NCBI GenBank assembly: GCA_029556545.1
Contig: JAKQEQ010000057.1
Coordinates: 1-50,184 of the forward strand
Reading direction: 5' to 3'
Length of the DNA stretch: 50,184 bases
Source of the DNA: Candidatus Hydrogenedentota bacterium
GTDB taxonomy: Bacteria > Hydrogenedentota > Hydrogenedentia > Hydrogenedentales > JAGMZX01
The position numbers and the translations under genes were made by a program. Shown piece after piece: positions 10,305-49,850 of the stretch. Position 1 is the first letter of the stretch; every line of letters begins with the position of its first letter. The notes beneath the pieces are model-generated. The model saw nothing but the letters and a program-made list of their open reading frames with translations, searched no databases and had not been told where the DNA came from.

Positions 10305-10399
10305 GATGAACCCCGTTATTTGCCGATGCCAAGCAACGTTCATGTTCGGTCTAATGCGTTGAATAGGCGTTCGGAACTCCGTCGAATAACAACTTCATC

Positions 10400-48843: not shown

Positions 48844-49504
48844 CTCCTGTTCTCTCCCATGGTTACAGCCTGCGCGAAATGCGCCTGCCAAACTTAAACA
48901 CGTTACCGTTCAGCCGACATGCCCTGAATACTTCTGCCGCCGACTGACAGATTTTTGACGCAAGCGTTGTGCCAAGTCACGGTCGCTTGTCCGCTTGAAC
49001 ATCATAAGTAACTATCAAACAATAAGTTACATTGTATGGCCGCGTGAGAATAGCGATGCCGAAGCCATCCAGGCAGGAGGCACAAATGGGGAATTTCGCA
49101 CGAAAGTTTGGGCGAAATTACGCATTTCACCGCCTCTTTATGATCGCAATGCCTCACCACAAGTGCCTCACAACGTGAAACGACCGCCATCTGGAGTTCG
49201 TGCGGCGTCCGAACGAAACGCGCTCCTTTACGGCGGAGAGATTCTCCGAACGAATCGGAGACAATCTCGCCTCATCCCAAAGCCCCTCCATATACGCCCA
49301 TGAGCTTTCCCTGAATTCCGCAGCCGAAAACGGGAACCCGCGTCTTTAATGGGGGGCTACAGCGCCACGGCAATTATCATACCCGCAACAGCGCAACCCG
49401 GTCGAGGGGTTTGCCCTTGTCCATTGGAACGCCGCGCCGTGCCCTGGTTGTTCCAGGCCCTCTCCTTCCGGGAAGACAAAGCTTGAAAAGTAGCGTGCGG
49501 AATT
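48844..49504. other. gene-free region upstream of the structured RNA
   Basis: About 660 bp in which I find no supported ORF. It contains an inverted repeat GTAACT...AGTTAC (about 49008-49030), a hairpin around GATTCTCCGAACGAATC (about 49231-49247), and lower GC than neighbours near 49000-49040. Short frames on either strand have no RBS or family features. Confidence 0.55.
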
Positions 49505-49537
49505 TTGCTTGCTAACGGGCCGGTTATATGGTATGGA
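49505..49537 (+). promoter_or_regulatory. possible promoter of the structured RNA
   Basis: TTGCTT (49505-49510) or TTGCTA (49509-49514) as -35, with TATGGT (49527-49532) or TATGGA (49532-49537) as -10 at 16-17 bp. This predicts a transcript start near 49544, just ahead of the structured region. Confidence 0.4.
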
Positions 49538-49543
49538 TAGGCT

Positions 49544-49850
49544 GAGGTAAGTCCAGGCTGGTGGCGAAGCGGCTCGTGGGGAGCTCGCGGGATACATCGG
49601 TCGCGGCTGAAAGGAGGTGATCCGTCGATGGTAAGTCCGGGTAAACCCGGCGCTAGTGGCCGGCGTCCGGCCTGCGCCGCAACCAGGAACCGGAAGACGG
49701 GTCTGTCTCATGTGGATGGGATGGACCCGACGAGGAGGTACGAGTTGTAGCCAGGCGGCGCGCACGGCTACTAGCATAGAGACAAGCGGGCCATCGAGCC
49801 CGCGCCAGATTGAAGGGACGCCCGGCGGCACGACCGTCGGGCGTTCCGCT
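49544..49850 (+). ncRNA. candidate structured RNA with 15-nt complement to 16S rRNA 3' end
   Basis: Six consecutive hairpins within 211 bp: CCGGG-TAAA-CCCGG (49637-49650); GGCCGG-CGT-CCGGCC (49658-49672), with an outer GGCGC/GCGCC pairing that competes with the first; a 14-pair stem 49698-49711/49716-49729 with loop GTGG; GTAGCC/GGCTAC (49747-49771); GCGGGC/GCCCGC (49786-49803); and a 14-pair stem 49815-49828/49834-49847. Three G-U pairs in the third and two in the last stem hold only for plus-strand RNA. GAAAGGAGGTGATCC (49609-49623) is a perfect complement of 16S bases 312-326. GGTAAGTCC occurs at 49546 and 49630. It does not match RNase P RNA, tmRNA, SRP RNA or the cobalamin riboswitch as I know them. 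Confidence 0.65.
49628..49750 (+). CDS. possible 40-residue peptide behind an extended Shine-Dalgarno
   Basis: ATG at 49628 follows AGGAGG (49612-49617) with 10 nt spacing, inside the 15-nt 16S complement. The frame runs 40 codons to TAG at 49748-49750. The product starts MVSPGKPGASGRRPACAATR, is basic in its first half, and ends DPTRRYEL; one Cys, no signal or membrane segment. Three of the hairpins lie inside the coding span, which would be unusual for an efficiently translated gene. It may be a real peptide, a leader peptide, or chance within a structured RNA. I know no family. Confidence 0.4.
   Translation: MVSPGKPGASGRRPACAATRNRKTGLSHVDGMDPTRRYEL

Follow-up and report, generated by a model that had tools for sequence, protein, structure and literature searches.

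The 50,184-nucleotide stretch of DNA analysed in this work (hereafter the window), which derives from a Candidatus Hydrogenedentota bacterium, contains at ~49544-49850 what sequence comparisons identify as a free-standing gene for a previously undescribed structured RNA of ~300 nt. The explanation of this RNA that we favour, with moderate confidence, is that it represents a self-regulating structured small mRNA, in which a maximal Shine-Dalgarno (SD) sequence would be masked co-transcriptionally and freed upon completion of the transcript. The features on which this account is based are as follows.

49509-49537, + strand: predicted promoter, consisting of TTGCTA (49509-49514), a 17 nt spacer and TATGGA (49532-49537); a weak match in the window.
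49544-49850, + strand: the whole predicted transcript, about 300 nt, supported by promoter position, terminator, fold (z = -4.7) and homologs.
49556-49602, + strand: 5' domain, in which helix P1 (49556-49563 paired with 49595-49602) surrounds helix P2 (49569-49575 paired with 49581-49588), supported by compensatory changes.
49609-49623, + strand: GAAAGGAGGTGATCC, complementary to the single-stranded 16S 3' tail over its whole length and a maximal SD sequence.
312-326, + strand: the 16S rRNA 3' tail GGATCACCTCCTTTC, its pairing partner, in the same window.
49619-49626, + strand: 5' strand of helix P6, comprising the 3' half of the SD and the spacer, sequestered in the predicted OFF state.
49628-49750, + strand: predicted small open reading frame (ORF) of 40 codons, MVSPGKPGASGRRPACAATRNRKTGLSHVDGMDPTRRYEL, supported by ATG spacing, open frame and gap pattern.
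49637-49650, + strand: hairpin P3, CCGGG-TAAA-CCCGG, in codons 4-8.
49652-49775, + strand: long-range helix P4 (49652-49662 paired with 49765-49775, 11 bp), which brackets the ORF body and stop.
49696-49703, + strand: 3' strand of P6, an anti-SD segment inside the ORF that is shared with P5.
49698-49729, + strand: P5, a 14-bp hairpin in the ORF that competes with P6, supported by covariation.
49815-49850, + strand: intrinsic terminator, with a 14-bp stem (49815-49828 paired with 49834-49847) and a short T-rich tail.

A preliminary description of this locus had reported a 15-nt complement to the 16S rRNA, and 49609-49623 indeed matches 16S bases 312-326 exactly. The conservation of this complement, on which a link of the RNA to rRNA depends, is complete, as all 15/15 pairs with the 16S tail are retained in 31/31 homologs, among which the sole substitutions in the complement (viz. 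A2G, A12G, and C15T) are each G-U-compatible. The pairing, which begins about 65 nt from the predicted RNA start, is also longer than that of a normal SD, as had been noted: its 15 pairs span the entire free 16S tail and the predicted duplex (-26.8 kcal/mol) is about four times stronger than that of a normal 6-nt SD (-6.6 kcal/mol). Within the 6.1 Mb genome to which the window belongs, the 15-mer is confined to this locus, the antisense strand of the 16S gene and one flagellin leader. The pattern GAAAGGAGGTGRTCC occurs at 35 places in 68 genomes (21 members of the family, 12 antisense 16S, 1 flagellin leader, and 1 unresolved), compared with two places for its reversed control, and the 12 phylum 16S genes that it matches in antisense carry identical 15 tail bases. 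Because the places matched are mostly family members or antisense 16S, the complement represents a hallmark of the RNA gene and is not a general SD of the phylum. Another GAAAGGAGGTGGTCC is present outside the family at G050:C411:3665-3679 (L185 1001-1015), behind a strong stem-loop at a contig end. The Rfam 16S family gave no match in the window's whole genome, though the window contains a 16S fragment, and we think that the assembly of only a 3' fragment is the cause.

With a covariance model built on the initial 106 positions, homologs were detected in 31/68 Hydrogenedentota genomes, with one copy per carrying genome except for one genome with two, and the RNA was not found in the families f10 (0/17), f6 (0/4), and f2 (0/1). 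Near-identical copies of the RNA are located on different contigs of one genome (G046:C318 and G046:C581), reflecting either duplication or strain mixture. Blast searches recovered relatives in 18/60 related genomes, the window's own included, and when 84,980 species genomes were scanned with an exact pattern, 20 loci were identified, all of them within the Hydrogenedentota: 17/20 are annotated as Hydrogenedentes/Hydrogenedentota and the other three (G009:C9, G023:C263, and G054:C23) belong to the window's order. No plasmid relatives of the RNA were found. These searches indicate that the RNA gene is specific for the phylum Hydrogenedentota. A weaker further member, in G064 (L187), carries a more degenerate copy of the complement, GGAAGGGGGTGATTCC. 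Viral contigs that carry a comparable SD and ATG, whose best score was 22.3 bits, were rejected as members of the family.

The gene neighbourhoods vary among the homologs, and since the neighbouring genes differ between loci, the RNA is regarded as the product of a free-standing gene. Its transcription from 49544 to 49850 is predicted from genomes, most of which are metagenome assemblies. Of the promoter-like and terminator-like flanks described earlier, the terminator stands, and homologs likewise have a G+C-rich, terminator-like hairpin with a T-rich tail 3' of the ORF; the promoter is weak in the window, where promoter prediction did not pick out the 49509-49537 element, but its position is conserved in most homologs, in which the best promoter is TTGCGN-16/18-TATAGT-like with its -10 element 73-83 nt before the 16S complement. 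No downstream gene is conserved across loci, and because the terminator follows directly, the RNA is interpreted as its own mRNA and not as a leader. Hence, of the three functional options put forward earlier, a leader for extreme translation is the best fitting with regard to its link to translation and fails with regard to being a leader, whereas a role in 16S 3'-end maturation finds no support, given the varied neighbourhoods and a complement which ends at the mature 16S tail. A cis-acting attenuator, in which a leader peptide and a terminator control a downstream gene, is suggested by the resemblance of the short ORF, alternative hairpins and terminator to amino-acid attenuators, but the genes downstream vary by locus and are often on the opposite strand, which makes this reading barely credible. 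The contig tail (49854-50184) is rich in inverted repeats (GGCACGGGCATCTTGCCCGTG and similar), and a 27-base piece just 3' of the terminator (query bases 375-401) is found again at G000:C63:88355-88381.

Several lines of evidence point to a coding function for the region that follows the complement. In 31/31 homologs the first A of the complement is followed by an ATG at a distance of 18 nt, or of 19 nt in two of them, and the frame that this ATG opens is free of stops for 27-43 codons in 30/30 testable homologs, one locus ending at a contig edge. With a threshold of 27 codons, the ORF frame runs without an earlier stop in 30/30 homologs and the other two frames do so in 6/30 and 1/30; open-frame probabilities in which the length is defined by the frame itself were set aside as evidence. 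In a MAFFT alignment made without codon information, the gaps within the ORF are of 3, 6 or 9 positions only, and they become irregular beyond the stop. The peptide sequence itself is, on these comparisons, poorly conserved and apparently weakly constrained, while the reading frame is retained: five close pairs of homologs differ by 18 synonymous and 30 nonsynonymous changes (pN/pS about 0.5, p = 0.018), the ratio over all pairs, distant saturated ones included, is 0.74, and part of the conservation of the peptide can stem from RNA structure. The peptides are hydrophilic (mean GRAVY -0.58, range -1.33 to 0.29) and a Pfam search of them gave no match. The 49628-49750 frame, which the preliminary description had overlooked together with its ATG, is thus a candidate for translation, and the view of the molecule as purely non-coding finds no support, given the ATG at 18-19 nt, the frame open in 30/30 homologs and the gaps in threes.

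The same observations weigh upon the reading of this locus as an ordinary non-coding structured RNA, in which the frame would be due to chance and the 16S complement would serve as a STAB-SD-like protection from 5' exonuclease. The known STAB-SD of Bacillus thuringiensis cry3A binds the 3' end of the 16S rRNA but does not initiate translation (PMC4113751), and GAAAGGAGG also occurs far upstream in flagellin leaders of Hydrogenedentota. However, the fixed start spacing, in-frame stop and gap pattern, seen over 30 homologs, are hard to obtain by chance, and we regard this reading as improbable. The flagellin leaders are of interest in their own right: in several Hydrogenedentota genomes (loci L196 [G000:C43, - strand, about 10348-10362], L197, L199, L200, and L201) GAAAGGAGG or a near copy lies some 105-140 nt upstream of the start codon, where it follows a stem-loop and is distinct from the SD of the gene itself, and the window's genome has the full 15-nt 16S complement in such a leader. 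By analogy, this element looks like an mRNA stabiliser of the STAB-SD type.

The predicted fold of the plus strand (-161.5 kcal/mol, z = -4.7, with 0/100 shuffles as good) is much better than that of the minus strand (-127.5 kcal/mol), and the two mismatch-free 14-bp stems (49698-49711 paired with 49716-49729, and 49815-49828 paired with 49834-49847) contain 3 and 2 G-U pairs, in agreement with the earlier assignment of the folded molecule to the plus strand. These two stems formed part of a proposed array of six adjacent stems, of which they are upheld, but the simple adjacency is not, since the long-range helix P4 encloses the 49698-49729 hairpin; the two-helix 5' domain upstream of the complement was missing from that array. 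Compensatory changes, whose absence would have spoken against a structured RNA, are present in P1, P2, P5, and P6. In 19 sequences they affect 5/6 pairs of P1 and 4/7 pairs of P2, and 0/500 shuffles reach the observed score; this and the other shuffle counts are not probabilities, because the homologs are related by descent. P3 is missing or replaced in a divergent subgroup of homologs, which also has a different long helix at the place of P4. The pairs of P4 change among homologs, e.g., from GCTAGTAG/CTACTAGC to GCCGGTAG/CTACTGGC, and it is on these visible changes that this helix rests, as swapping its strands between homologs gave a weak signal (native -17.1 vs. -15.9 kcal/mol).

The helices P5 and P6 suggest how access to the SD could be controlled. 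In 15 sequences 99.2% of the P6 cells are paired, compared with 28-48% in slid versions of the helix, and its compensatory changes include A-U to G-C and C-G to U-A. For P5, 6/9 tested pairs show compensatory changes and 0/500 shuffles reach the covariation score. The 5' arm of P5 has bases in common with the anti-SD segment of P6, and the two helices are therefore mutually exclusive. When truncated RNAs were folded, by an equilibrium and not a kinetic procedure, P6 appeared once its partner had been transcribed and was lost in most full-length RNAs; a combination of at least 8 nascent SD-ORF pairs with at most 3 once the RNA is complete was seen for 48% of homologs vs. 3% of shuffles. Two homologs (L028 and L047) lack strong nascent sequestration, and in five (L033, L036, L037, L039, and L050) the SD is still sequestered at full length. 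In the divergent subgroup the anti-SD partner is nearer to the start, at +48 to +56 in most members, and inspection indicates that it is later absorbed by the long-range helix. The occurrence of the same order of events with two different competing helices argues, within these folding models, that the order of masking followed by release has been selected.

Taken together, these results are best explained by the small self-regulating mRNA proposed above. A landing site complementary to the whole free 16S tail would drive translation from the AUG 18 nt downstream. During transcription, the in-frame segment would pair with the 3' half of the SD and the spacer (P6), masking the site, and once the remainder has been transcribed the frame would refold into the competing P5 hairpin, freeing it; in the divergent subgroup the long-range helix would take up the anti-SD segment instead of P5. 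Pairing over 15 bp with the 16S tail would allow the 30S subunit to win against residual structure, and the output may be either the peptide or translation as such. This co-transcriptional operation is what the models predict. SD duplexes of great length can impede initiation, which counts against this explanation.

A less probable explanation, related to the earlier suggestion that the RNA captures 30S subunits, is that of a decoy or sensor that binds free 30S via the full-tail duplex, with translation serving as release or arising as a by-product. It retains some weight because the landing site far exceeds the weakly constrained peptide in both length and conservation, and the duplex energy of -26.8 kcal/mol, set against the -6.6 kcal/mol of a 6-nt SD, is in keeping with docking, but a pure decoy has no need of a start codon, an open frame with gaps in threes or a switch that masks the site. 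On a rather speculative extension, to which we give similarly limited credence, the RNA could be a phylum-specific device for ribosome availability, which once finished captures free 30S by a duplex with the complete 16S tail and whose fold is reset by translation of the sequence-variable frame, the function being to translate the message and not to make the peptide.

The masking of the SD also invites comparison with type I toxin mRNAs, in which metastable sequestration of the SD keeps the nascent mRNA from being translated and a distinct antisense RNA acts as silencer of the message. An SD-sequestering segment within the ORF fits this aapA3/hok-type logic, and in the aapA3-type toxin mRNA such a hairpin inside the ORF has been demonstrated genetically (PMC6733600). 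In the present RNA, intramolecular hiding of the SD in the nascent mRNA is indicated by prediction and covariation, but the small hydrophobic membrane-active peptide characteristic of these toxins is lacking, as the peptides are hydrophilic and without Pfam match; the gene is single copy in nearly all carriers, unlike a patchy plasmid or phage gene; and no minus-strand promoter-like site in the window is placed for an antisense RNA, the sole one (49376-49405) being upstream of the gene and reading away from it. As the peptide feature failed and no antitoxin is visible, we do not class the RNA as a type I toxin mRNA, an assignment that we consider very unlikely.

The self-regulating small mRNA that we favour would belong to a family of RNA genes not described before, in a poorly known phylum seen almost exclusively in metagenomes. 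The family is a natural system in which to ask whether mRNA structure yields to very strong SD pairing, whether genes other than those for toxins mask their SD co-transcriptionally, and whether there are genes for which translation may itself be the product.

The absence of a named RNA family with this layout, as noted at the outset, is borne out by an Rfam search of the locus, which gave no match at gathering score. A 5' GAGGTAAGTCCAGGCT recalls RNase P, but this candidate was dismissed as the RNase P of the genome sits elsewhere (its own tmRNA, RF00023, and RNase P, RF00010, are at G000:C78 and G000:C63, respectively). The Caulobacter sRNA CC2171 (RF01867) shares the GAAAGGAGGUGAUCCAG stretch and a terminator hairpin at its end; however, its inner helices do not align, it has no 5' domain, and membership was rejected at 19.5 bits in the window and 27.7 at best in 60 genomes (gathering 75), with only the 15-mer and the terminator aligning. 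Consensus positions 9-26 of RF01867 hold the same 16S complement followed by a GUG at SD spacing, and judging from this sequence CC2171 could be a small mRNA instead of being non-coding. The STAB-SD resembles the present RNA in having a 16S 3'-end complement near the RNA 5' end, whereas here an AUG at 18 nt appears to open a conserved frame. In Staphylococcus aureus an extended SD, with two pairs beyond the canonical helix, is used for initiation (PMC13009471); it is likewise longer than canonical, but the pairing described here comprises 15 pairs in one specialised RNA and is not genome-wide. With hok and aapA1/aapA3 the RNA has in common a short ORF in a compact structured mRNA, whose SD is predicted to be masked during transcription by a partner in the ORF; it differs from them in having no hydrophobic peptide and no antisense promoter seen in the window, in an SD that spans the entire 16S tail, and in being a conserved single-copy gene of one phylum. 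Among the families compared, the combination of a duplex along the complete 16S tail, a short conserved frame whose peptide is little constrained, and a covarying, predicted two-state SD switch is new.
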